A DNA stretch of 64,000 bases from positions 226,001-290,000 of the forward strand of contig JAOTOM010004681.1 in the NCBI GenBank assembly GCA_034440615.1, in the 5' to 3' direction. The notes below the pieces were generated by a model. That model was not told the origin of the DNA and did no database searches. It saw nothing but the letters and a program-made list of their open reading frames with translations. The stretch comes from Ashinkailepas kermadecensis (taxonomy: Eukaryota; Arthropoda; Thecostraca; Neolepadidae). Of this stretch, positions 11,685-52,500 are shown piece by piece; within the stretch, counting starts at the first letter, position 1; the number at the start of each line of letters is the position of its first letter. The translations under genes and the position numbers were made by a program.

Positions 11685-12170
11685 TCCGACTCGAGTCTGA
11701 GTCTGAGTCAGGCTCAACCTCTTTGAGTCCACGAGTCCGAGTCCGAGAAGTGTGGAAAAGTGGACTCGAGTCCGAGTCCATGAGTCCGACTCATGAGTCC
11801 GAGTCCAGACTCATACAGGTTATTTAAAGATCCTACTGTCCTACCCCCTTGTTACCTACTATATGTAAGCTGGTAGCAGCTATAAATTACTTTTCATCAA
11901 TATTTTGTCTGTAATGTGCAAATTGTGAGCAATTTTTCTCAATTTACATATCTGGACTCAAGTCTGGACTCAAATCTGGTCAGAATTTCTGGACTCGAGT
12001 CCGAGTCCAGGTCAGAGTATCTGGACTCGAGTCCGAGTCTGAGTCAGACTCAAACTCTTCAAGTCCATGAGTCCGAGTCAGTACGCCTTGGTATAGCGGA
12101 CTCGAGTCCGAGTCCATAAGTCCGCCAAAACCACTGAGTCCGGACTCATGAGTCCGAGTCCGGACTCAAT
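11685..12170. repeat. Dense GAGTCC/GGACTC hexamer-like repeats inside the pogo element
   Basis: Two blocks (about 11686-11815 and 11950-12170) are built from GAGTCC, GAGTCT and CGAGTC variants on both strands, giving many short palindromes such as GGACTCGAGTCC. The blocks lie in the 5' leader before the transposase and are conserved in the second copy at 49966-50450. They could be expanded regulatory or binding sites; nothing shows this directly. Confidence 0.8.
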
Positions 12171-12260
12171 GCCCATGTCTACACACCACATATCAGTCCA
12201 AAACCAATGCTAAAGGTGAACTTTAACATTTCAACATTCTTTCACAGGTTGATGCTAACG

Positions 12261-14159
12261 ATGCCTCGGACTTACGATAAGACAACATCCAAGACCTACA
12301 CGGACGAGGATCTTCGGGTTGGCTTGGAGACGATCGCCAAGGGAAAAACCGTGTATGCGGCTGCTCAAGCCACTGGTGTGCCACTCTCCACACTACGACG
12401 CCATGCCCTCAACCTGAACCAAACGGATCGGATTGGCTCCGGTCGTAGTACCATCGTCCCGCCAGAAGACGAAACGAGGATTGTCCAGGTGCTCGTGTAC
12501 TTGTCCAGGCTCGCGCACCCTCTCGACACGAGCGATCTCAAGACGCTTGTTCAAGGGTACGTTAACCACCTCGGACTTGAGACCGGGTGGGTCGACAACC
12601 GTCCGGGGGATGACTGGGTTAGGCTGTTCAAGAAGCGCCACGCCGCGGTCCTCTCCACGCGGAAGGCGGAGCTGCTCACCGTCTCCCGTGCCAAGTCACT
12701 AACCCCGGCCGTCATCGATGCGTTCTTCCAGCTGCTTCGATCTGAGATGGAAGAACTCAAGCTCACGGACAAGCCAGCAAACGTGTACAACTTGGATGAG
12801 AGCGGGCTCTCAGCCGACCCACGTGGGAAGCACGTGTTTGTCGAGAAGTCTGGGCGAGACGCCTACTTGAAGAGTCAGGGGGCTGGCAAGGCGATGTACT
12901 CCGTCCTGTTCTGCTGCAATGCCGAAGGGCGCTTCCTACCGCCGTTCGTGGTCTACAAAGCGCTGCGGGCACCTTACGACACGTGGACCCAGGGCGGCCC
13001 TCCCGGGACGACCTACACGACTACCCCCTCTGGATGGATGGAGAGCGGCGTGTTCGAGGAGTGGTTCTGTACCATCTTCCTCGAAGATGCGAAGAAGCAG
13101 CACGCGGGGGAGCCCATCATTCTGCTCTTTGATGGGCACGGGAGCCATATGACGTACAAGACCGCGTCTCTGGCCAGGGAGAACAACGTAACCATCATCT
13201 GTCTGCCACCTCACACCAGCCACGCCCTCCAGCCCCTGGACGTGGCTGTGTTCAAGCCTCTGAAGGCGAAGTGGCGTGAGGTCTTGAAGATGTGGGCCCG
13301 TGAGTCCCGGCTCACAAACGTGGACAAGACCACCTTCCCTCACTTGCTGTCCAAACTCTGGACCAAGTTGGATCCGCAGCTCGCCGTGTCCGGCTTCCGT
13401 GGTGCTGGGATCGTTCCCCTGGACCCAGCGAAGATGAGCTCCCGCATGGTTGGCGGGGACGGATTTTCCAAGAGAACTGGAGTCTCGTCACCAGTCAAAG
13501 CCCTGAAGGAAGCTGTTCTGAACGTCATCTCGCCGTCACAATCCGAAGGCACGAAAACGGCCCTGGCCAACAAGGCAAAGCGGCGCTCCAGAGTTCAAGC
13601 GAAGGTTGGTGAAGTTCTGACCGCTGAAGCATCCCTCCGTCGGCTCGAGCAAGAGGAAGAACAGTGCGGCAAGAAGGCTGCCGCGATGAGGCAGCCGAAG
13701 AAGAAGAAGAGGAAACTCGTCTTCGATGAGGAGGAGGAGGAGGACGACCCCCCTCTGCCTCCCGAAGAACCGTTCCCACCACCAGACTCCTCGGATGAAG
13801 AGACCAACACCGACAACAAACGGAACGAGAAGCGCAGACACAACGAGAAGCACCTCGACAAAGTCGACTACAAGGACATCAAGACCTCCGACTTCGTCGT
13901 GATCCAGCTCAAGCACAAGACGTTCCTCGCTCAAGTGGCTGGCATCGAGACCAACTCAACTGAGAGCACTCGGGCTGTCCATGTCAGCTACCTGAGGAAG
14001 CTGCCTGGTGCGCAGACTCGCCGCTTCACGTTCCCGGAGGTCCCCGACCTGTCAGTGGTCTATCCACACGAGATCCTCGGAGTCGTCCGAAACGTTCAGA
14101 TGGATCGGCGGGGATCCATCTTCCAAGTCGTGGAGTACGACTGCTCGGAACTGTCATAG
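12261..14159 (+). CDS. pogo-like DDD transposase, copy 1
   Basis: This enzyme cuts and pastes its element at TA sites in the nucleus. The preferred start is the ATG at 12261 (MPRTYDKTT), because an acceptor TTCTTTCACAG lies just upstream at about 12247, so the first 18 in-frame residues may be intronic or untranslated. In order, numbering from an upstream ATG at 12207: Psq-type helix-turn-helix (about 35-70), CENP-B-like helix domain (about 90-150), then the DDE_1 catalytic core with YNLDESG (D197), LLFDGHGSH (D309) and LQPLDVAVF (D345), spaced 111 and 35. A KKKKRK nuclear localisation motif (498-503), an acidic proline stretch, and a small beta-rich C-terminal domain (FLAQV, RRFTFPE, YPHE) follow. 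No disabling change is seen. Confidence 0.93.
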   Translation: MPRTYDKTTSKTYTDEDLRVGLETIAKGKTVYAAAQATGVPLSTLRRHALNLNQTDRIGSGRSTIVPPEDETRIVQVLVYLSRLAHPLDTSDLKTLVQGYVNHLGLETGWVDNRPGDDWVRLFKKRHAAVLSTRKAELLTVSRAKSLTPAVIDAFFQLLRSEMEELKLTDKPANVYNLDESGLSADPRGKHVFVEKSGRDAYLKSQGAGKAMYSVLFCCNAEGRFLPPFVVYKALRAPYDTWTQGGPPGTTYTTTPSGWMESGVFEEWFCTIFLEDAKKQHAGEPIILLFDGHGSHMTYKTASLARENNVTIICLPPHTSHALQPLDVAVFKPLKAKWREVLKMWARESRLTNVDKTTFPHLLSKLWTKLDPQLAVSGFRGAGIVPLDPAKMSSRMVGGDGFSKRTGVSSPVKALKEAVLNVISPSQSEGTKTALANKAKRRSRVQAKVGEVLTAEASLRRLEQEEEQCGKKAAAMRQPKKKKRKLVFDEEEEEDDPPLPPEEPFPPPDSSDEETNTDNKRNEKRRHNEKHLDKVDYKDIKTSDFVVIQLKHKTFLAQVAGIETNSTESTRAVHVSYLRKLPGAQTRRFTFPEVPDLSVVYPHEILGVVRNVQMDRRGSIFQVVEYDCSELS

Positions 14160-34339: not shown

Positions 34340-35887
34340 GGAATAGTTTTTTTTACAAGCCTCATTGCTTCAAATGTCAAGCGATTTGCCAAGCAGTACC
34401 TCGACAGGCTTGGTGTGACAAGCAAACGGTGGTATGACAATCTGCCGGGAGACAAATGGGTCAAGGCATTCTGCCAACAGAATGGACTGACAAAGCGGAT
34501 GGTGACAAACATCAGCCGAAAGCGGGCAGCTGTCGATCACAAAACAATTGAGGCATACATTACCGAGCTCGCCGACAGTCTCGCTGGGGTTCCCGCTGAG
34601 AATCTGATCAACTATGACGAAACGGGACTCACAGATGATCCTGGCAGGCGAAAATGTATCGTTCGTCGTGGAAGCCGCTACCTCTGAAACCGTGGCAAAC
34701 CACAGCAAGGTGACGACCAGTGTGATGTTTGCAGGAACTGCCAGCGGCCATCTGCTCCCACCGTTTGTCGTGTACAAGGCCAAGAACATGTACCTGGAGT
34801 GGACGACAGGAGGCCCTCGAGGCGCCCGCTACGCGTTTTCAAAGAGTGGGTGGTTTGATGAAACGTCATTTGAAGATTGGTTCATGAACATCTGCCTGCC
34901 GTATCTACATCGAAAGCAAGTACCAAAAGCTATCATCGGAGACAACTTGTCGAGCCACATCAGTGAGAAGGTGGTCCAAAAGTGCAACGAGAACAACGTA
35001 AGGTTCATATGTCTCCCACCGAACTCGACACACCTAACACAACCACTTGACGTCGCCTTCTTCTCGTCGCTCAAGAAGAAATGGAAGAAGGTTATCGGAG
35101 ACTGGAAGGCGACGCCGTCTGGGAAAAAGTACGACACCCTGCCGAAGAATATGTTCCCGGCGCGCCTGAAGGAGTTGATCTCCGTCCTGAACACTGACAA
35201 TCTCAAGTCGGGATTCAAGATCTGCGGGATTCATCCTCTCGACAAAACACCGGTCCTGGAAAAGCTCCCGAAAAAGCGCTCTGATGACGGCGACGCCGCA
35301 ATCGATGCCGTTATCGTCGACCATCTCCAAGCTCTCCGTGGCTCAAAGAACACAGCTGGACCGTCCCGTCGCCGCAGGACGAAACCGAACGTCCTGCCCG
35401 GCAGGTCGGTGCGCATCAGCTCATCCGATTCTGGTGACAGCGAGGCTGAGGATCTTCCCGAATCGTCGCCGTCCGAGGAGGACGAAGGCAGTTGCGAACA
35501 GAAGAAAGCGAGGACGGAAGGGAAAGAGGAGGATCAAAGAGATGACGGGTCGACCGAAAGCGACCAGGAGCAGGGATGTGACAGTTCGCCCTTGGGGATC
35601 AACTGGAGCCGTGTCGCCCAGGGAGATTTCGTCATCGTCAAGTTGGTGGGGAAGAAGGGGACAAAGCTGTTCCTTGCACAAGTTGTCGCCACAGACCCCC
35701 CCCAAGCGTGTTATTCCTCAAGAAGCAGCCGAGGTTCACGTTTGTGTTTCCCGCAACGGAAGACGTCAGTCTCATCGAACGCGATCAGGTGCTCCGCCAA
35801 GTCAAGAAGATCACACCCGACCGCCGGGGACTGATATGGACCGTCGACTTCGACATCGATGCGGAGACGCTTCCAGCGACTGTCTGA
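34340..35887 (+). pseudogene. pogo-like transposase, third family, frameshifted
   Basis: This diverged relative of the 12261 transposase begins within the CENP-B-like domain (VKRFAKQYLDRLG, RWYDNLPGDKWVKAF), then shows NYDETGLTDDPG, IIGDNLSSHIS and LTQPLDVAFFSSLKKKW as the three aspartate motifs. An acidic, lysine-rich linker (35400-35560) follows, and a C-terminal domain with GDFVIVKLVG, LFLAQV, RFTFVFPA and DRRGLIW resembles the C-terminus of the other pogo-like proteins here. Frame breaks lie near 34670 and 35700. The N-terminal helix-turn-helix was not found. The downstream GGCTAAAG motif recurs, including an inverted pair at 36159-36166 and 36186-36193, and may be subterminal binding sites. 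Confidence 0.75.
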
Positions 35888-37776: not shown

Positions 37777-38178
37777 ACCTGTTTCTTATGAATACTCACT
37801 TCGGACGTATAGTGCACTGGCATCCACAAGGAACCCCCAAGGTAGACAGCATGCCGCCTCTGTCGAGCGTTGTGTCCTTGCTCACCTCGTTGGGCGCGCA
37901 TAAAGCGGTACAGTAATACTTTTTTGCATTGAAACAGCTTGTTTATTTGTTTATTGTTTATTGTCCAGTCTCCAACAGCATATTGTGCCCTTTTCAGAAG
38001 CCATTAGCTAGAAAGCAATACTTGCAATGAACGAAGCTTGTAAATCATCCCTTATGTTATCTACGCAAAACGTTATTTGTTACGCTGTTCGGTAAGCCTT
38101 GTTCAGGAACGGTTGCAATGCTATATTTAATTCCATATTTGTTACGGCGTGTTCACGATGTCAATTCAGTTTGCCGCC
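37777..38178. other. No supportable gene before the minisatellite
   Basis: No gene motifs are seen. Confidence 0.4.
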
Positions 38179-39426
38179 GGCTTCACGGTACCCGCTGTGG
38201 TGACGGGCGCCATGGCGCATCCCGGCGGCTTCACGGTACCCGCTGTGGTGACGGGCGCCATACCACATCCCGCCGGCTTCACGGTACCCGCTGTGGTGAC
38301 GGGCGCCATGGCGCATCCCGCCGGCTTCACGGTACCCGCTGTGGTGACGGGCGCCATACCACATCCCGCCGGCTTCACGGTACCCGCTGTGGTGACGGGC
38401 GCCATGGCGCATCCCGGCGGCTTCACGGTACCCGCTGTGGTGACGGGCGCCATACCACATCCCGCCGGCTTCACGGTACCCGCTGTGGTGACGGGCGCCA
38501 TGGCGCATCCCGGCGGCTTCACGGTACCCGCTGTGGTGACGGGCGCCATACCACATCCCGCCGGCTTCACGGTACCCGCTGTGGTGACGGGCGCCATGGC
38601 GCATCCCGGCGGCTTCACGGTACCCGCTGTGGTGACGGGCGCCATACCACATCCCGCCGGCTTCACGGTACCCGCTGTGGTGACGGGCGCCATGGCGCAT
38701 CCCGCCGGCTTCACGGTACCCGCTGTGGTGACGGGCGCCATACCACATCCCGCCGGCTTCACGGTACCCGCTGTGGTGACGGGCGCCATGGCGCATCCCG
38801 CCGGCTTCACGGTACCCGCTGTGGTGACGGGCGCCATACCACATCCCGCCGGCTTCACGGTACCCGCTGTGGTGACGGGCGCCATACCACATCCCGCCGG
38901 CTTCACGGTACCCGCTGTGGTGACGGGCGCCATACCACATCCCGCCGGCTTCACGGTACCCGCTGTGGTGACGGGCGCCATGGCGCATCCCGCCGGCTTC
39001 ACGGTACCCGCTGTGGTGACGGGCGCCATACCACATCCCGCCGGCTTCACGGTACCCGCTGTGGTGACGGGCGCCATACCACATCCCGCCGGCTTCACGG
39101 TACCCGCTGTGGTGACGGGCGCCATACCACATCCCGCCGGCTTCACGGTACCCGCTGTGGTGACGGGCGCCATACCACATCCCGCCGGCTTCACGGTACC
39201 CGCTGTGATGACGGGCGCCATACCACATCCCGCCGGCTTCACGGTACCCGCTGTGGTGACAGGCGCCATACCACATCCCGCCGGCTTCACGGTACCCGCT
39301 GTGGTGACGGGCGCCATACCACATCCCGCCGGCTTCACGGTACCCGCTGTGGTGACGGGCGCCATACCACATCCCGCCGGCTTCACGGTACCCGCTGTGG
39401 TGACGGGCGCCATGGCGCATCCCGGC
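38179..39426. repeat. 48-bp minisatellite, 26 copies
   Basis: Twenty-six head-to-tail units of exactly 48 bp are almost identical except at two places: ATGGCG versus ATACCA, and GGC versus GCC at the unit end. The two unit types alternate regularly through the first 14 units, giving a 96-bp higher-order period. They then give way to mostly ATACCA units, with ATGGCG units at positions 17 and 26. Each unit contains a KpnI-type GGTACC and a GGCGCC palindrome. The array is open in two plus and two minus frames because 48 is divisible by three. One plus frame would encode repeats of GFTVPAVVTGAIPHPA. No evidence favours coding. Confidence 0.97.
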
Positions 39427-40440
39427 GGCCGTGCCGTGGCCGACGCCACCTTCAGGGTGGTGCCTCGCATTTTTGCCCACCTCCTAGTGGTATTCTGAGA
39501 GGTCGCGGGCTGCATGCTGCCGGGCTTTTTCATCCTGATGTCGTCGAGAACTCGTGTGCTCTACAACGCAGTGCTGGGCCAAGTAGCTGCAGAATCCCAG
39601 CGCCTGCCACGCTAATCACCGACTGGGAGCGTGCGCTGCAAGGCGCGGCGATCGCGAGATGACATGACACCAACACGAAGGGATGCTGGTTTCATTATGT
39701 TCAGGCCGTGCTGAGAAAGGTACGAAAAACTAGACATGTCTGGCCTAACACAATACATGTTGTGCAGTTTTCCTTTCGATTCTCGGCTGTTGCTCATGGT
39801 CTTGCTCCGTCATATCTTACCGAGATTAATCACTCGGAAATAGCAACGTTTTTGGTGGCACTCGAAATATCAATGATATCCTATTTCTTACATTACGTCC
39901 CCCCCCCCCCCCCACTGTTTACTCTGTATATTCTAACGACATTCTCCACGAAGAGAAATATTTAGAATCACTCTTTTATCAACTGTGCTGGATTTGGTCC
40001 CACAAAAAAGCACCAGACAAGACACGTGACATAAAAAGCATCTGATATCTATGATGCACCGCGGTCAAGTACTATATTACCCATTGGCGCAATCAGTGTT
40101 GAAACATACCGACATGAAAACAAAGTTGGTTTCGCAAGCCCTACACCTAAAGAAATGCACCTTTCGCGAATATGCATCTCATTAAAAACAATCCATTGGT
40201 CAACGCAATAAGGACATAAGAAACTAATGCGATGCCGACAGAGTAGACTCCACGTTGGATGATCGCTCAGTTTGTGTTGAACGTCGGTGGTGTGTATGTG
40301 TGGGTGTTGTGTTGGTCTACTTGTCGACATTCGTGCGTGAGTGTTCAGTGGGGAATGGAGTGCAGATAGTGCCGGTGATGACGATGTATGCGCGTTAACA
40401 TTCCATTCAGGGTGGATTGTGTGGGACTGGCGTGAGCAAA
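39427..40440. other. No supportable gene; poly(C) run
   Basis: This is unique sequence with a 16-base C run at about 39899. No motif is recognised. Confidence 0.4.
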
Positions 40441-40760: not shown

Positions 40761-41018
40761 TGGTGTTCTTGGTGTCGTGTGGGCTGATGAAGCATGTCAT
40801 GTCATAGACATACAATCACCCTTAATGGAATGTCAACGCGCATACATCGGCATCACCGACACTATCTGCACTCCCTTCCCCACTGAACACGCACGAATGG
40901 AAAAAAATAAAAACAAAAAACACCCCCACAAAAAAACAACAACCTACAAAAACAACAAAAAAATTAATTTAACCAAGTGTCTTCTTGTTCTGGCTCCTGT
41001 TTTTTTTTTTACCTTTTA

Positions 41019-41526
41019 TAGTGGGGGCGCTTAGCCCAAATATTCAAAAGAATTGAGCATTTTGTGATACAAGCACCAAATTTGGCACAAATGTACATTA
41101 ATATGTTGCGAACATTTTCAGATATTGGGCCACTTGAAATTCTCTCTTTATGTCCGCCATATTGGATTTCAAAATGGCCGCCACTTGAAATCTACATTTG
41201 CTATTATCTCTGGACATAATGCAGCTATTGACTTGATTCTGGTATCTAAATGTATGTTTTTGGGGGCAAGGAATCCAATGGTACCAATTTCAACTTAATA
41301 TTATCTATCACAGTGTGTTATATAATTTTATTTGGAAATTATCTAGGCAAATATTGGATTCAACACAATACTTTGAAAAGAATGTCTCAGTTCTGTAAAT
41401 GTCTTAGGTATAATACTGACATGCTACATGGTCTGGTATTTGAGGCTAGGTGTACTGGTATCTGAGGCTAGGTATATACCGGTACTGAAGATACGTGTAC
41501 ATAAACAGTGTCATGTTAACAAGTTC
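41019..41526. repeat. Left terminal inverted repeat of the Academ-like element
   Basis: This is the reverse complement of 47080-47577. The inner boundary falls at AACAAGTTCA. The first 17 bp differ from the other tip at two positions. Confidence 0.93.
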
Positions 41527-42445
41527 AAGTGCTGGCTAAACCACTTGTCTGGTGGGCACGACAGAGGCAGGTTGTCTAATAGCCAACCTGGTCTTACTTT
41601 TTTGGGGTTTATCTGAAATTCTTACTATAAGGCTTTAAATTAGAAATGTTTTATATAAAGTAGTATTTTGAGTGAAGTGTGTATTCCACACTGACAGTTT
41701 TGATGGAGGCCATTCACATTAAAAGACAAAAGCCAGAATTGAACAGAGACAATGGATATTTTATTCCTCCAGCCTATGATGAACTTTTAAGAATATAACA
41801 ACTCACAACCTATTACCTATAATGATTACTGTTAGAAGCCTATTACCTATGTTTACTGTTAGAAGCCTATTGCCTATTACCTATGTTTACTGCTAGGAGC
41901 CCACTACCTTTTAATTACCTTTTAATTATCTCCTATTATTTACTGAACATTATTATGTGATGACACCTTTTACTCAACAGTTATCAGTGACATTAATTAT
42001 TCTATAAAAATGTATATAATCTGTTACATGTATCATTTACCTCATAGGCTTGAAGAAGGTGATAGCATATTCACCGAAACGTTGCCAGTTTAATAAACAT
42101 AAGAAGTTGAAAAATCCATAAAATGTTGTCATTATAGTTTTGACATGTTCTGAATTTAACACGAAGGCTGTAATTAACAGAACGGGGTATGTCTGGAAAA
42201 TGTACTGTCCAACCTAATAAGAGTTTAGACTGATTTATATTTAAATCTTGGCTGTGTAAATATTGTAAGAATTTATGAATTCAAATGTTTTGTAAATATT
42301 CAATAAATTGGGGAATATTTTTTAACTAAAGAATCTCATGTGATTTTATTTCTCTTCTTGCCTCCGGTATGGGTGAAAATTTAATTCCGGCATAATCTTA
42401 ACATTATATCATTGTATCGTTGCAGATTCAGAAGACAGTTCCACC

Positions 42446-45400
42446 ATGTCCAAGAGCTTCAGACTAGCTGATGTTGAGCGAGCTTCACCATCAACATCAC
42501 AGCACCTCACCACAACTGACTGGAAGTTATGCCTTATATGTCAAGAGGACAAGACGGAGACACTGACCAAACCTGACCAATCAAAGAGAAAAGACATTGG
42601 GAGTGGGTACAGTTCACTCGCAGAGAACTTGGTCAAATTCAGTGAACTTGGAGAGCTTCCAGGATCATTTCACCTGGAAAGACTCGATGATGGTCATGGC
42701 ATTGAAGCTGCGATGGTTGCACACGGTGCAAAATATCATCAGACATGCAGGCTCCAGTACAACAATACCAAACTGCAGAGAGCACAAAAGAGAGCACTCA
42801 AGAAAGAATGTGAGAGCGATGAGGAACAAGCTGCATGCAAACGCACCAGGTTACATTCACGCTCATCGAGTACAGAGAAGAAGGTCCCAGAAAATTGTTT
42901 CTTCTGTGAACAACCTGCTGGGGCTGACAGTCTTCGGAAAGCTGCAACATTCCAAATGGACGAACGGGTGCGTGCCTGTGCAAGCCTTCTTGGTGATACA
43001 GAACTGCTGGGCCGTCTCAGTGGTGGGGACATGATAGCGTTGGACGCCCAGTATCACCCACGGTGCTTGATAGGACTTTACAATCGCACAAGAAAGGCCC
43101 AGTCAACAGGATCACAGGACACAAAACAAGAGCGAGCAATGTCGGCAGTTGTCTTCGCTGAACTCGTCCTCTACATTGAAGAAACCAGACAAGATGAGGA
43201 GACGGCACCAGTATTCAGATTGGCTGACCTTGTCCAGCTCTATCAGTCCAGAATGGAACAGCTAGGAGTCCAGCTCGACACGAGAGTCCACTCCACACGA
43301 CTGAAACAGAGACTGTTGGCTCAGTTTCCTGACATGCGGGCACACACCAAGGGGAGAGACATCCTGATGGCATTTGAAGAAGATGTCGGTGCTGCTCTTG
43401 CCACAGCCTGCGAGCTGGACAGTGATAGTGATGCAGTCCATCTTGCCCATGCTGCACAGATTGTTCGCCGTCACATGTTTGGAGAAGCCAAGCCCTTCAC
43501 AGGATTCCCTGAAGTATGTCAAGAAGAATCTGTGCCACCGTTGCTGCTTGCCCTAGTCAGTATGATCCTAGAGGGACCCAGCATCAAGGAACAGATGGCA
43601 GACACTAACCCTGCAGCAATTGCCACAGCTCAGATACTGAAGTTCAACAGCATCAAACACAAGCGAACACGTGGCACCACATCATCCACCAGTGTCAGGC
43701 ACAGTGTTGCACAGGAGACCCCACTTCCAATATACATAGGGATGATGCTGCATGCTCATACACGCAAGAAGGAATTGGTCGACAGACTGTCACACCTTGG
43801 CCTGAGCATCTCCTATGATAGAGTGCTCCAGCTCTCAGCACAGATGGGCAACAGTGTCTGCCAACAGTTTCACATAGAACGAGTGGTCTGCCCTCCGAAG
43901 ATGCGTGGCAAAGTGTTTACAACTGCCGCTGTAGACAATATAGATCACAACCCCAGTGCAACAACATCAAAGGACTCCTTCCATGGTACCGCTATCTCCC
44001 TCATACAACATCCTTCTTACACTGGTGAAGGAGTGGATCGGAGTATCGTCATTGTTGGAGGATCTGGGGATGCACGGTCCAAGACAGTCGCCCCCTTGCC
44101 GCACTACTACACTGATGTACCCCCTGTCACTAGCAGCATCAAGAAGTCACCTGTCCCAGCTGCTAAAGTGGCGTCATTGACCAGAGGAGACTTCAAACAG
44201 CAGACTGATGAAGAATACCAATGGCTAGGCAATGCAAAGCGAGTCCTGGAAGACAACACTGGTACAGTGGACAATGACAACACATCTTGGGCTGCATTTC
44301 ATGCCAGCCGACAGCCACCAGATGCTCGAGTCATCTGCCCCACGTCGCTGCTTCCACTCTTCCTGGAGAGTGCCCACACAGTGGCCATGATCCGGCACTC
44401 AATGGACGTCGTGAAGAATGCTGTGGAACACCTGAATCCTGGACAGACACCAGTGGTCACCTTTGATCAGCCACTGTTTGCTTTGGCCAAGCAGATACAG
44501 TGGAAGTGGCCAGAGAGCTATGGTGAAGACCAGATAGTGGTGATGTTTGGTGGCCTCCACATAGAGATGGCGGCACTGAGGACACTGGGGGACTGGCTGA
44601 AAGGGAGTGGTTGGGTGCAAGCACTTGTGCAAGCCGAGATTGCGACAGCAGGGACAGCAGACTCATTCCTGCGAGCATCCCATGTCTTGCGCACAAGAAG
44701 AGCACATCAAGTGACTGCAGCAGCACTGTACATCCTGCAACACCGTGCCTACAACCACTACTGTCTGGGAGAAACCAGGGATGCAGAGGACCTTCCGGAG
44801 TTTGAAGACTGGTGTTGCCAGAGAGGAGAAGACATCCCCCAGTTTCAATACTGGGCAACCGTGCTGGAACTAGAACTGTTGGTTCTAGTGTATGTGCGTT
44901 CTCTCAGGCAGGGATCGTTAATGATGTACCTCGATGCTCTGACAGAGCTGGTCCCCTGGTTCCATGCACTGGATCACACCCACTATGCTAGGTGGATACC
45001 AGTGCACCTGAAGGACATGGCCGAACTCACCATCAAACACCCAGATGTAGCCAGGAAATTCAGGGAAAGCCACTTCACCGTTCAGAAAACACAGAGGGTG
45101 TTCTCTTCAATCCCGATTGACCAGGCACATGAGCAGAATAATGCCTGCATCAAAGGAGACGGTGGAGCAGTTGGGCTCACTGACAACCCTAGTGCCCTAC
45201 GTCGCTGGATGGTTGCGGGACCAGAAGTTGCCAGGGTGATCGAAGAATTCCAGGATGGGAACCAACACTGGAGACGGCAAACAGCAGACACACGTCATCA
45301 TGATCAGACGCCAAGTGTACAGGCCTCATTTGTGAAAGATGTTCGCTCTCTCGTCGGTGTCATAGAGGAGATGGGCAACCCATTCGAGGAGGAGAGTCAG

Positions 45401-47041
45401 GATGTAGTCAAACTGGACACAAAGGAGATCGCAGATCCTGCTGCTGTGGAGACCGTGATGAATGCCAAGAGGATTGGCCAAGAGCAGTTCGAGGCTTTCA
45501 CCAGAGAGTGTCTGTTGGACAGAACAAAGGCAGTGGACCAACCCATTCCTCGTAACAAGCTGAAGGTGTTCAGCACTTCCACTCCAAGAAGCCAGAGCAA
45601 AGGTCAGCAACAGCTCGCCTCCATCAAGAATGACCGTGAACTCTTCGCACGCCTGTACATTGGCTGCCAGACGAGGGATGGAAACCTTGAGGAGTTCTTT
45701 CGTCACGAGAATCAGGCATGTCCTCCTGCATTGTCTGATGGTGGAAGCCTCTGCACTGGTACCAAGAGTGATCTCCTCACATGCTTGGAAGAAGTCTCCG
45801 ACGCAAAGACAGAGACTCCTGTCACGACCTGTATTGTGCTTGATGGAGCAGCCATCGTCCAGATGCTGAAGCCGGCTGCATCAAAGACCTTTGAAGAGTA
45901 TGCACAACAGATCTTCATCCCATATATGTCCACGAAGCTGCAAACAGTGTCACGCCTGGATCTGGTCTGGGATACTTACCTTGCTGATTCACTGAAAGGT
46001 AGTACACGTGCAAAGCGGGGACAAGGTGTGCGGAGACGTGTGGTGGCTGCCGCAGCCATACCAGGAAACTGGCAGAACTTCCTACGAGTGGACAGCAACA
46101 AGACCGAGCTGTTCAGGTTCCTCTCAGCAGCTCTCATGGAATGGTTTGACCAGGAGGACAAGCAACTCGTCATTACTGATGGAGAGGCAGTGCTCAGCAA
46201 GCCACTACTGCCAGATCTGACCTCACTCGCCCCATGTAACCATGAAGAAGCTGACAGTCGGATGTTGCTGCATGCATCTCACGCAGCCCAGCATGGACAC
46301 CATGCAATACTCATCCGGACTGTAGACACCGATGTTGTGGTGCTGGCAGTGTCCCTGGCACAGGAGTTGCAACCAGAAGACAAACTGTGGCTGGCATTCG
46401 GAACAGGCCAGAGTTTCCGATACCTAGCAGCACACGAAATAGCAGCTGGATTGGGACGAGAGAAGGCTCGTGCACTGCCAATGTTCCACGCTCTAACTGG
46501 ATGCGACACTGTGTCTAGTTTTCATAGACATGGCAAGAAGACTGCGTGGGCAGTCTGGACGGTACTGCCAGAACTCACTGAGGCGCTGCTGCTGCTGTCC
46601 TCTGCACCTCGTGACATACCAGACGATGCAATGCGCATCATCGAGAGGTTCGTGATCCTGTTGTATGATCGAACCAGCAAATGCACAGACATTGACAAGG
46701 CCAGGAGGAAACTCTTCGCAAGGAAGAACAATGTGCAGCTCATCCCTCCAACGAAGGCAGCTCTGGAGGAACATGTCAAGAGGGCAGTGTATCAAGGTGG
46801 ACATGTGTGGGGTCAGATACTGCTGCCAGCACCAGAGCTCCCTCCACCAACCAACTGGGGTTGGTCAAGGACTGGAGAAGGACAGTACACACCTTACTGG
46901 ACCAGGCTAACTGAGGCAGCTCACAGCTGCATTGAGCTGGTTTCTTGCAAGTGCAAGAAAGGGTGTGTGAGGCGCTGCAAGTGCAAAAAGGCTGCCCTTC
47001 AGTGCACAGCCCTCTGTGTGTGTGAAGGGGACTGCACATGA
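42446..47041 (+). CDS. 1531-residue transposase-like protein with FEN/XPG-like nuclease
   Basis: One uninterrupted frame starts at ATG 42446, 20 bp after a splice acceptor, so an upstream non-coding exon is likely. In order: two zinc-binding modules of CxxC, HxxC form (C29, C32, H98, C101 and C151, C154, H204, C207); a central region with acidic candidates D497/D500 (AAVDNIDH), D674 (TFDQPLF), E707 (GGLHIEMA) and E896 (IDQAHEQNN) that could be an RNase H-fold transposase core; and a FEN/PIN-like nuclease with D1133 (IVLDGAAI), E1267/E1268/D1270 (HEEADSR), D1294/D1296 (VDTDVVVL) and D1354 (TGCDTVS), the classic spacing of 5'-nucleases. A CXC-like cysteine cluster (1501-1530) ends it. The nuclease assignment is well supported by motif order; the transposase core is inference. 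Confidence 0.85.
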   Translation: MSKSFRLADVERASPSTSQHLTTTDWKLCLICQEDKTETLTKPDQSKRKDIGSGYSSLAENLVKFSELGELPGSFHLERLDDGHGIEAAMVAHGAKYHQTCRLQYNNTKLQRAQKRALKKECESDEEQAACKRTRLHSRSSSTEKKVPENCFFCEQPAGADSLRKAATFQMDERVRACASLLGDTELLGRLSGGDMIALDAQYHPRCLIGLYNRTRKAQSTGSQDTKQERAMSAVVFAELVLYIEETRQDEETAPVFRLADLVQLYQSRMEQLGVQLDTRVHSTRLKQRLLAQFPDMRAHTKGRDILMAFEEDVGAALATACELDSDSDAVHLAHAAQIVRRHMFGEAKPFTGFPEVCQEESVPPLLLALVSMILEGPSIKEQMADTNPAAIATAQILKFNSIKHKRTRGTTSSTSVRHSVAQETPLPIYIGMMLHAHTRKKELVDRLSHLGLSISYDRVLQLSAQMGNSVCQQFHIERVVCPPKMRGKVFTTAAVDNIDHNPSATTSKDSFHGTAISLIQHPSYTGEGVDRSIVIVGGSGDARSKTVAPLPHYYTDVPPVTSSIKKSPVPAAKVASLTRGDFKQQTDEEYQWLGNAKRVLEDNTGTVDNDNTSWAAFHASRQPPDARVICPTSLLPLFLESAHTVAMIRHSMDVVKNAVEHLNPGQTPVVTFDQPLFALAKQIQWKWPESYGEDQIVVMFGGLHIEMAALRTLGDWLKGSGWVQALVQAEIATAGTADSFLRASHVLRTRRAHQVTAAALYILQHRAYNHYCLGETRDAEDLPEFEDWCCQRGEDIPQFQYWATVLELELLVLVYVRSLRQGSLMMYLDALTELVPWFHALDHTHYARWIPVHLKDMAELTIKHPDVARKFRESHFTVQKTQRVFSSIPIDQAHEQNNACIKGDGGAVGLTDNPSALRRWMVAGPEVARVIEEFQDGNQHWRRQTADTRHHDQTPSVQASFVKDVRSLVGVIEEMGNPFEEESQDVVKLDTKEIADPAAVETVMNAKRIGQEQFEAFTRECLLDRTKAVDQPIPRNKLKVFSTSTPRSQSKGQQQLASIKNDRELFARLYIGCQTRDGNLEEFFRHENQACPPALSDGGSLCTGTKSDLLTCLEEVSDAKTETPVTTCIVLDGAAIVQMLKPAASKTFEEYAQQIFIPYMSTKLQTVSRLDLVWDTYLADSLKGSTRAKRGQGVRRRVVAAAAIPGNWQNFLRVDSNKTELFRFLSAALMEWFDQEDKQLVITDGEAVLSKPLLPDLTSLAPCNHEEADSRMLLHASHAAQHGHHAILIRTVDTDVVVLAVSLAQELQPEDKLWLAFGTGQSFRYLAAHEIAAGLGREKARALPMFHALTGCDTVSSFHRHGKKTAWAVWTVLPELTEALLLLSSAPRDIPDDAMRIIERFVILLYDRTSKCTDIDKARRKLFARKNNVQLIPPTKAALEEHVKRAVYQGGHVWGQILLPAPELPPPTNWGWSRTGEGQYTPYWTRLTEAAHSCIELVSCKCKKGCVRRCKCKKAALQCTALCVCEGDCT

Positions 47042-47079
47042 CGATGAGTCAACAACATACATGTACTTGTGGCAATGCT

Positions 47080-47577
47080 GAACTTGTTAACATGACACTG
47101 TTTATGTACACGTATCTTCAGTACCGGTATATACCTAGCCTCAGATACCAGTACACCTAGCCTCAAATACTAGACCATGTAGCATGTCAGTATTATACCT
47201 AAGACATTTACAGAACTGAGACATTCTTTTCAAAGTATTGTGTTGAATCCAATATTTGCCTAGATAATTTCCAAATAAAATTATATAACACACTGTGATA
47301 GATAATATTAAGTTGAAATTGGTACCATTGGATTCCTTGCCCCCAAAAACATACATTTAGATACCAGAATCAAGTCAATAGCTGCATTACGTCCAGAGAT
47401 AATAGCAAATGTAGATTTCAAGTGGCGGCCATTTTGAAATCCAATATGGCGGACATAAAGACAGAATTTCAAGTGGCCCAATATCTGAAAATGTTCGCAA
47501 CATATTAATGTACATTTGTGCCAAATTTGGTGCTTGTATCACAAAATGCACAACAGGTTTGCTAAGCCGCCCCACTA
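47080..47577. repeat. Right terminal inverted repeat of the Academ-like element
   Basis: This is the partner of 41019-41526. It begins 38 bp after the stop codon of the transposase-like gene. Confidence 0.93.
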
Positions 47578-47580
47578 TTA

Positions 47581-49517: not shown

Positions 49518-52500
49518 GGGTAGGGTGGGGTAAAATGAACAGTGGGTGAAAATGAACATATCCTGTAAAAAAGTGGTTTATGTATAATTGGTTCATGATA
49601 CAGTCTAGAATGATACAGTATTAATTTTAGTACGATAGACGGGCCGCCCGAAACCGTCATGAAAGCTCCTATTCACATTTGGAATTTTGAGCAACTTCAA
49701 TATTTGTGTCGTACCCATCAACGATCGAAAAAAGTGACCCCTGAAAAGTGATTGTTACGGCCTGTGGTATAACCGAAAATCGAAATGTTCTTAGCTGAAA
49801 AGGTGAACAAAGAATGTAGTTACACATTCAACTTGTTTTCGACGTCCTACTTCAAAACGTTACTTTAAAAAATATAGATATAAAAATGGGGGTAAAATGA
49901 ACATACCCTACGAAATCCACGGGGTAAAATGAACACACCACCAGACATGGGACTTGGAAAATTTTCCGACTCGAGTCTGAGTCTGAGTCAGGCTCAACCT
50001 CTTTGAGTCCATGAGTCCGAGTCCGAGAAGTGTGGAAAAGTGGACTCGAGTCCGAGTCCATGAGTCCGGACTCATGAGTCCGAGTCCAGACTCATACAGG
50101 TTATTTAAAGATCCTACTGTCCTACCCCCTTGTTACCTACTATATGTAAGCTGGTAGCAGCTATAAATTACTTTTCATCAATATTTTGTCTGTAATGTGC
50201 AAATTATGAGCAATTTTTCTCAATTTACATATCTGGACTCAAGTCTGGACTCAAATCTGGTCAGAATTTCTGGACTCGAGTCCGAGTCCAGGTCAGAGTA
50301 TCTGGACTCGAGTCCGAGTCTGAGTCAGACTCAAACTCTTCAAGTCCATGAGTCCGAGTCAGTACGCCTTGGTATAGCGGACTCGAGTCCGAGTCCATGA
50401 GTCCGCCAAAACCACTGAGTCCGGACTCATGAGTCCGAGTCCGGACTCAATGCCCATGTCTGCACACCACATATCAGTCCAAAACCAATGCTAAAGGTGA
50501 ACTTTAACATTTCAACATTCTTTCACAGGTTGATGCTAACGATGCCTCGGACTTACGATAAGACAACATCCAAGACCTACACGGACGAGGATCTTCGGGT
50601 TAGCTTGGAGACGATCGCCAAGGGAAAAACCGTGTATGCGGCTGCTCAAGCCACTGGTGTGCCACTCTCCACACTACGACGCCATGCCCTCAACCTGAAC
50701 CAAACGGATCGGATTGGCTCCGGTCGTAGTACCATCGTCCCGCCAGAAGACGAAACGAGGATTGTCCAGGTGCTCGTGTACTTGTCCAGGCTCGCGCACC
50801 CTCTCGACACGAGCGATCTCAAGACGCTTGTTCAAGGGTACGTTAACCACCTCGGACTTGAGACCGGGTGGGTCGACAACCGTCCGGGGGATGACTGGGT
50901 TAGGCTGTTCAAGAAGCGCCACGCCGCGGTCCTCTCCACGCGGAAGGCGGAGCTGCTCACCGTCTCCCGTGCCAAGTCACTAACCCCGGCCGTCATCGAT
51001 GCGTTCTTCCAGCTGCTTCGATCTGAGATGGAAGAACTCAAGCTCACGGACAAGCCAGCAAACGTGTACAACTTGGATGAGAGCGGGCTCTCAACCGACC
51101 CACGTGGGAAGCACGTGTTTGTCGAGAAGTCTGGGCGAGACGCCTACTTGAAGAGTCAGGGGGCCGGCAAGGCGATGTACTCCGTCCTGTTCTGCTGCAA
51201 TGCCGAAGGGCGCTTCCTACCGCCGTTCGTGGTCTACAAAGCGCTGCGGGCACCTTACGACACGTGGACCCAGGGCGGCCCTCCCGGGACGACCTACACG
51301 ACTACCCCCTCTGGATGGATGGAGAGCGGCGTGTTCGAGGAGTGGTTCTGTACCATCTTCCTCGAAGATGCGAAGAAGCAGCACGCGGGGGAGCCCATCA
51401 TTCTGCTCTTTGATGGGCACGGGAGCCATATGACGTACAAGACCGCGTCTCTGGCCAGGGAGAACAACGTCACCATCATCTGTCTGCCACCTCACACCAG
51501 CCACGCCCTCCAGCCCCTGGACGTGGCTGTGTTCAAGCCTCTGAAGGCGAAGTGGCGTGAGGTCTTGAAGATGTGGGCCCGTGAGTCCCGGCTCACAAAC
51601 GTGGACAAGACCACCTTCCCTCACTTGCTGTCCAAACTCTGGACCAAGTTGGATCCGCAGCTCGCCGTGTCCGGCTTCCGTGGTGCTGGGATCGTTCCCC
51701 TGGACCCAGCGAAGGTGAGCTCCCGCATGGTTGGCGGCGACGGATTTTCCAAGAGAACTGGAGTCTCGTCACCAGTCAAAGCCCTGAAGGAAGCTGTTCT
51801 GAACGTCATCTCGCCGTCACAATCCGAAGGCACGAAAACGGCCCTGGCCAACAAGGCAAAGCGGCGCTCCAGAGTTCAAGCGAAGGTTGGTGAAGTTCTG
51901 ACCGCTGAAGCATCCCTCCGTCGGCTCGAGCAAGAGGAAGAACAGCGCGGCAAGAAGGCTGCCGCGATGAGGCAGCCGAAGAAGAAGAAGAGGAAACTCG
52001 TCTTCGATGAGGAGGAGGAGGAGGACGACCCCCCTCTGCCTCCCGAAGAACCGTTCCCACCACCAGACTCCTCGGATGAAGAGACCAACACCGACAACAA
52101 ACGGAACGAGAAGCGCAGACACAACGAGAAGCACCTCGACAAAGTCGACTACAAGGACATCAAGACCTCCGACTTCGTCGTGATCCAGCTCAAGCACAAG
52201 ACGTTCCTCGCTCAAGTGGCTGGCATCGAGACCAACTCAACTGAGAGCACTCGGGCTGTCCATGTCAGCTACCTGAGGAAGCTGCCTGGTGCGCAGACTC
52301 GCCGCTTCACGTTCCCGGAGGTCCCCGACCTGTCAGTGGTCTATCCACACGAGATCCTCGGAGTCGTCCGAAACGTTCAGATGGATCGGCGGGGATCCAC
52401 CTTCCAAGTCGTGGAGTACGACTGCTCGGAACTGTCATAGGGCCAATGCTCAACAGTGTTTTGATCCATGGTATTATACGAGTACGATGGTTTGTTGATA

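Follow-up and report, generated by a model that had tools for sequence, protein, structure and literature searches.

Structure and copies of the transposon

The window analysed here is a stretch of 64,000 nucleotides of Ashinkailepas kermadecensis DNA (contig JAOTOM010004681.1), to which all coordinates refer. A DNA transposon of 6559 bp was found on its + strand at 41019-47577, as near-identical copies elsewhere in the genome stop at the same bases and have different flanks. The element starts with TAGTGGGG at 41019 and ends with CCCCACTA at 47577, and TTA lies on either flank. It encodes one long protein, whose C-terminal domain appears to be related to FEN/XPG nucleases. Its two ends are unequal, a feature that had been missed by an earlier note on this DNA and that was seen in all five families of such elements in this genome (the window family and families B-E). 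The features of the element are listed below; dN/dS denotes the ratio of nonsynonymous to synonymous substitution rates.

41016..41018, no strand: left target-site duplication (TSD) TTA (flank comparison)
41019..47577, + strand: transposon, 6559 bp (near-identical copies, different flanks)
41019..41035, + strand: 5' tip block, 17 bp (repeat finder and end comparison)
41036..41057, + strand: long spacer, 22 bp, at the 5' end (inner repeat begins 39 nt from the tip)
41053..41527, + strand: left inverted-repeat arm (repeat finder; the inner repeat itself starts at 41058)
42420..42425, + strand: TTGCAG, possible 3' splice acceptor ahead of the ATG (by eye)
42446..47041, + strand: single open reading frame, 1531 aa (ATG to stop; dN/dS 0.18 against family C, 1281 codons)
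42530..42748, + strand: CxxC/HxxC module 1, residues 29-101 (conserved C29, C32, H98, C101)
42896..43066, + strand: CxxC/HxxC module 2, residues 151-207 (conserved C151, C154, H204, C207)
43883..45325, + strand: presumed DDE transposase region, residues 480-960 (D500, D674 and E896 as candidates)
45833..46645, + strand: FEN/XPG-like nuclease domain, residues 1130-1400 (conserved acidic residues, profile comparison)
46946..47038, + strand: CXC-like C-terminal cysteine cluster, residues 1501-1531 (cysteines conserved)
47079..47553, + strand: right inverted-repeat arm (repeat finder; the inner repeat itself reaches to 47548)
47274..47279, + strand: candidate polyadenylation signal AATAAA within the right arm (by eye)
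47549..47560, + strand: short spacer, 12 bp, at the 3' end (inner repeat begins 29 nt from the tip)
47561..47577, + strand: 3' tip block, 17 bp (repeat finder and end comparison)
47578..47580, no strand: right TSD TTA (flank comparison)

The inverted-repeat arms (41053-41527 and 47079-47553) were 475 nt long and 99% complementary. A separate terminal pair of 18 nt (41018-41035 and 47561-47578), which was 89% complementary, was located outside them. The earlier note had claimed a 6.56-kb transposon with a TTA duplication and inverted repeats of ~500 bp, and each of these was present in the sequence, the repeats being 475 nt by our measurement.

The window's own assembly (907,663,968 bases in 4689 contigs) was searched for copies and relatives. 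The window family comprised six copies on six contigs (the window, C4582, C4306, C3054, C1424 and C2634). Four of the five other copies aligned to the window copy in one piece with 99.57-99.80% identity, and C1424 aligned in two pieces with 99.70 and 98.96%. Pairwise Kimura two-parameter distances among the six were 0.2-0.66%. The window copy showed four differences from the majority of copies, none of them within the frame, and it was the sole copy with an unbroken frame. Both tips were present in five of the six copies, all of which were flanked by an exact 3-bp TSD, each different (TTA in the window, CAA in C4582, AGG in C4306, CTA in C3054 and GTA in C1424). C2634 had lost its left tip. 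The insertion in C3054 sits within tandem repeats. When its flanks were joined with one CTA, the result corresponded to an uninterrupted unit in the downstream flank (23-mer, at most one mismatch; 0 of 1000 shuffled flanks matched), so this neighbouring unit serves as an empty site. Both the further copies with the same tips and 3-bp duplications and the empty site, which the earlier note had suggested looking for, were thereby found.

Target-site duplications and unequal ends in five families

Families B-E were found by protein searches of the same genome, and their counts are lower bounds because the best candidates alone were scored. Family C showed mostly 65-79% identity by matched piece, with one short piece at 52% (C2203, C4388, C935 and C3908). 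Family B was 45-54% identical to the window protein (C4133, C2068, C4028, C4685, C851, C4151, C4660 and a fragment in C4023), and in the longer pieces its loci matched the family B bait mostly at 92-97% identity. The identity to the window nuclease domain was 25-31% for family D and 25% for family E.

A 3-bp TSD was observed in 23 of the 23 insertions that were readable at both tips and flanks (window family 5, family C with its short derivatives 8, B 2, E 4 and D 4). These counts cover eight of nine family C or short loci (L014 was excluded, its tips not matching the search patterns), two of four merged family B loci (C4133 and C4685 show one tip only) and four of seven family E contigs (the left tip of C3194 is damaged; C4184 and C2262 were outside the two-ended reads). 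The tips begin with TAGT, save in single altered copies, among them the right tips of C4598 and L017 and a few places in family D. The window tips read TAGTG...CACTA, of which only TAGT/ACTA is retained in families D and E and at one end of C.

In the window element, 22 nt separate the 17-bp tip block from the inner inverted repeat at the 5' end, and the corresponding gap at the 3' end is 12 nt. The resulting tip-to-inner-repeat distances of 39 and 29 nt were found in all five window-family copies with both tips. The distances were 34/24 in family B, 32/22 in C, 33/23 in E and 43/33 in D. The split into 17+22 and 17+12 fits all five families, the robust measure being the 10-bp difference, which is about one turn of the DNA helix. 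The measured ends of family E (5 long and 5 short) and family D (4 long and 3 short) all agreed. In each of the five families the longer end was the one upstream of the gene (family C being judged from L015 and L016). Families B, D and E differ from the window element in tip and repeat sequence, and C differs least. All eight family C or short loci had one end of each tip type; six of them were measured by script as 34/24, and for L022 the script gave 24 and the second end was read by eye as 34 (long type).

Family D allowed a bulk comparison in which the ends were typed by sequence, giving 40 long-type ends and 40 short-type ends, the latter being those scored of 81 candidates. It was found that 37 pairs faced each other within 15 kb, of which 36 consisted of a long and a short end, one of a long and an untyped end (C2282), and none of two like ends. 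Every one of the 36 elements typed at both ends thus combined a long-type with a short-type end, in counts where copies of the same family are not independent. Seven typed ends and 17 untyped 13-mer places were unpaired.

Domains of the encoded protein

The single intact frame of 1531 residues described by the earlier note was recovered without a break, from the ATG at 42446 to the stop at 47041. The two CxxC/HxxC modules and the C-terminal cysteine cluster it had pointed out were likewise present, and they were conserved with family B (C29, C32, H98 and C101; C151, C154, H204 and C207; nine cysteines within 1501-1530). The Pfam TCR family (CXC, Tesmin/TSO1-like) gave E 0.33 for the family D relative L060 only, with no match for the window piece. 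A Pfam search of the whole window protein up to E 1 returned no match, and hence no helicase match. D500 and E896 were kept in families B and C, and D674 was kept with B. From these conserved acidic residues and their position, we infer that residues 480-960 may represent a DDE transposase.

The dN/dS value between the window frame and a mosaic of family C pieces was calculated to be 0.18 over 1281 of the 1531 codons, with 62 codons covered in the N-terminal 240. By region, it was 0.16 for the nuclease and 0.19 for the transposase region. These values are upper bounds because the family C copies used are broken, and they indicate that the nuclease and the transposase region were both under past purifying selection. 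In the comparison of the window with family B, synonymous sites were saturated in most regions.

In the C-terminal domain, D1133, D1176, E1268, D1270, D1294, D1296, D1354, K1364 and K1365 were conserved in the window family, B and C, and family D (L060) retained an acidic residue at each of the seven positions. Six of the acidic residues (D1133, E1268, D1270, D1294, D1296 and D1354) form the ordered 5'-nuclease motifs that the earlier note had recognised, and they were located where it had put them; D1176, within LVWDTY, is a further acidic position absent from its list. The motifs of family E (VLDG, VVFDGY...K...R, GDAD, DTD and GCDTTS..GIGKG) were plainer than those of the window family, in which the H3TH-like motif reads RHGKKTA in place of GIG.

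A query profile of six rows (window, B, C, E and D twice) was compared by hhalign with a target profile of nine rows (four archaeal FEN1s, human FEN1, EXO1, GEN1 and two host exons). The comparison gave P 1e-4, with alignment to Pfu FEN1 68-257 through each motif, and the insert-free score was 36.2 vs a maximum of 24.0 among 300 column shuffles. The aligned motifs correspond to D86, E158/E160, D179/D181, D233 and the H3TH motif of human FEN1. P was 0.0013 when the window sequence was placed first and 3.3e-4 for families D and E only, and the transposase region, used as a negative control against the FEN profile, gave P 0.37. Homology of the C-terminal domain to FEN/XPG nucleases is thus supported by profile comparison at the level of five families. 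Like FEN1, EXO1, GEN1 and XPG, the domain has the acidic positions, D-x-D, GxD and an H3TH-like motif in the same order and over a similar length. Unlike them, it is fused to a transposase, and with 15-23% identity it lies under the sensitivity of Pfam and PDB searches.

Several results weigh against this assignment. The window domain alone vs FEN1 gave P 0.28, so the FEN-like nuclease claimed by the earlier note stood for the five-family profile and not for the window protein by itself, and a profile of window, B and C only reached P 0.023. The first profile comparison, with near relatives only (effective number of sequences 1.5), gave P 0.23, beside P 0.71 and 0.22 for reversed controls. In the second, five families were set against archaeal FEN1s plus two exons of the host; P was 0.015, and the insert-free score came to 26.1, the best of 100 shuffles reaching 26.0. 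The third attempt alone, to which human FEN1, EXO1 and GEN1 had been added, was clear, and its result should be read as one of three tries. No FEN/XPG match was found in Pfam or PDB, whether single sequences or two alignments served as queries, the matches below threshold being PHD_NSD, tRNA_edit, HAT_Syf1, preSET_CXC and TCR in Pfam and HflX and glycoprotein H in PDB. A single-sequence fold model, made without an alignment, had a predicted local distance difference test score (pLDDT) of 34 and speaks neither for nor against a PIN/FEN fold. In family E, the residue facing E1268 depended on the alignment, being alanine in one and aspartate in another.

Scans of viral and prokaryotic contigs and phage records with the nuclease domain returned no relatives, and a host FEN1 exon used as bait in the same contig collections also found no match.

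The uncertain acidic position in family E, together with RHGKKTA instead of GIG in the window, would also suit a decayed or repurposed FEN-like fold that has lost DNA cutting. We consider this quite unlikely, since the seven acidic positions are kept in the window, B and C, L060 is acidic at each, and the dN/dS of the domain is 0.16.

Classification and alternative explanations

The AcademX lineage of the Academ superfamily was reportedly described by Kapitonov and Jurka in 2010 and by Kojima in 2020, and its nuclease is of the XPG type. According to PMC10045372, AcademX makes 3- or 4-bp target duplications, AcademH of the same superfamily has a helicase in place of the nuclease and makes 9-10 bp duplications, and the duplication length in Academ seems tied to the enzyme encoded, helicase or nuclease. 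Because a nuclease-bearing lineage with 3- or 4-bp duplications is described there, the window element fits AcademX, judged by description from its nuclease (P 1e-4 for the family profile, with 0 of 300 shuffles scoring as high) and its 3-bp TSDs (23 of 23 readable insertions in the five families). The Academ-type assignment of the earlier note was supported in the same way, Academ being represented by its description. AcademH differs from the window element, whose protein had no helicase match in Pfam up to E 1 and whose duplications are 3 bp, not 9-10 bp, long. The 22/12-bp end spacing, on the other hand, is not mentioned in the accessible parts of AcademX descriptions. The window element is very probably an autonomous, recently active DNA transposon of this nuclease-bearing Academ kind. 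A point against present activity is that the five other copies are broken, and a single intact copy is no proof of it.

Other origins of the element were weighed against this assignment. The right flank of the window copy enters homopolymer-rich sequence, as might be met in a segmental inversion or an assembly artefact around a host gene. That explanation, which is hardly credible, was refuted by the six copies on six contigs with five different TSDs and by the uninterrupted repeat unit beside C3054; the inverted repeats, whose origin by a segmental inversion would have told against the earlier note's reading, are accordingly those of an element. CACTA/EnSpm (CMC) elements have 5' CACTA...TAGTG 3' tips, 3-bp duplications and a CMC transposase, so that the TAGTG...CACTA tips and 3-bp duplications of the window element recall them. 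The order of its tips is reversed (5' TAGTG, 3' CACTA), its protein has no Pfam match, and only TAGT/ACTA is kept in D and E and at one end of C; CACTA/EnSpm was rejected for the reversed order and the missing Pfam match, and it is very unlikely. A separate superfamily, sister to Academ and having the same nuclease fusion, is an unlikely but less remote alternative. It would account for the lack of Pfam or PDB sequence matches to the window protein and for unequal ends going unmentioned in the accessible Academ descriptions, and it gains from the fact that Academ is known here by description and not by comparison of transposase sequences; against it stands the combination of nuclease and 3-bp duplication, which is that of AcademX in PMC10045372.

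As to the 10-bp asymmetry of the ends, we think it somewhat more probable that it is a functional pairing signal than that it has any other origin. Its size and orientation were kept in five of five families, despite the 22-bp spacers of D and E matching those of the other families at only 4-9 of 22 bases. Several points speak for an inherited accident without function, which we regard as a serious but less probable explanation. The five families are related, and given this shared ancestry the 10-bp difference may have arisen once and been inherited. The 5' spacers of the window, B and C have 12-15 of 22 bases in common, which leaves only about three independent lineages, and copies with internal deletions inherit their ends. 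The short copy L017 has a 3-bp TSD and yet its ends measure 28/24 rather than 34/24, which is a real exception.

Derivatives of the families and other elements in the window

Short or internally deleted derivatives of 0.8-4.2 kb carrying family C tips were observed (L015-L022). In family D, 19 of the 37 paired elements were 3.4-4.1 kb long (e.g. C3861:154552-158273), which appears too short for a full transposase ahead of the nuclease. The nuclease matches of family D had reported open frames of up to 894 aa, as the search defines that figure. These short elements are possibly nuclease-bearing dependants of a full-length partner. Three family D loci (L061, L062 and L063) have a stop at one position of the cysteine cluster; as this position is common to all three, it suggests that they descend from a single copy that had been broken before.

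An insertion of 102-114 nt at about residue 590, beginning with GTAAAT, ending with CAACAG and containing in-frame stops, was present in seven of the seven family B loci printed (L033, L035, L037, L044, L047, L048 and L031). It was missing from the window copy and from two family C loci (L014 and L015). This GT-AG insertion looks like a spliceosomal intron, which would imply intron gain or loss in a transposon gene.

The window contains several other transposons besides that at 41019-47577. Two similar 673-aa frames with Pfam DDE_1 were found at 12138-14156 and 50419-52437, and a third DDE_1 frame lies at 34608-35831. At 38031-39659 and 38164-39560, both strands have long open frames that consist of repeated units (FTVPAVVTGA...) and are probably a minisatellite rather than a gene.

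Proposed mechanism and comparison with known systems

We propose that sites in the tip and the inner repeat would be bound by the zinc modules at the N terminus, by the cysteine cluster or by both. By such two-part recognition, a transposase multimer would pair the long-spacer 5' end with the short-spacer 3' end, in a 12/22-type rule. The transposase would then nick the 3' strands and join them 3 bp apart in the target, and the attached FEN domain would take off the 5' flaps or the second strand at the ends. In other transposases this task falls to hairpins, a second cut or enzymes of the host. Our suggestion that the nuclease works on the non-transferred 5' strand or flap, and not at some other place, is tentative and somewhat doubtful; no evidence was found for the earlier idea that it opens hairpins of the inverted repeats. 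The enzyme-linked duplication length given in PMC10045372 agrees with a nuclease acting within the transposition reaction.

More generally, nuclease-bearing Academ transposons may follow an unlike-ends rule (22-bp and 12-bp spacers) that evolved separately from the 12/23 rule of V(D)J recombination and the 9/21 spacing of the P element, the FEN fusion and this geometry together defining a distinct way of pairing and cutting ends; our confidence in this falls a little short of even. The pairing of unlike ends by recombinases is an old question that has largely rested on RAG and the P element. With a further case, present as five families in one genome and including an intact copy, one-turn spacing as a general solution becomes testable. 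The FEN fusion places a structure-specific nuclease on the transposase, and the fate of the non-transferred strand becomes directly addressable. What deserves further attention is the one-turn difference between the ends.

The window element is a new family, and the fusion of nuclease and transposase is itself already known. An unequal-end rule for Academ was absent from the titles and abstract openings of the papers listed by literature searches on Academ, flap endonuclease-transposases, 12/22-bp spacers and P-element spacing, and it may already be in print. No nuclease fusion is known in the P element or V(D)J systems. KolobokE, KolobokP and KolobokD are, like the window element, transposons with an accessory nuclease, but theirs are PD-D/ExK, His-Me finger and DEDDh enzymes (PMC9587614) and not FEN-like. 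The P element and the V(D)J signals differ from the window families in their tips. The P element also makes 8-bp duplications, and its spacings of 9 and 21 bp have been likened to the 12/23 recombination signal sequences of V(D)J recombination (PMC7776569). What the P element and the V(D)J signals have in common with the window families is a pair of ends whose tip-to-inner-site spacings (9/21 and 12/23) lie about one helical turn apart.

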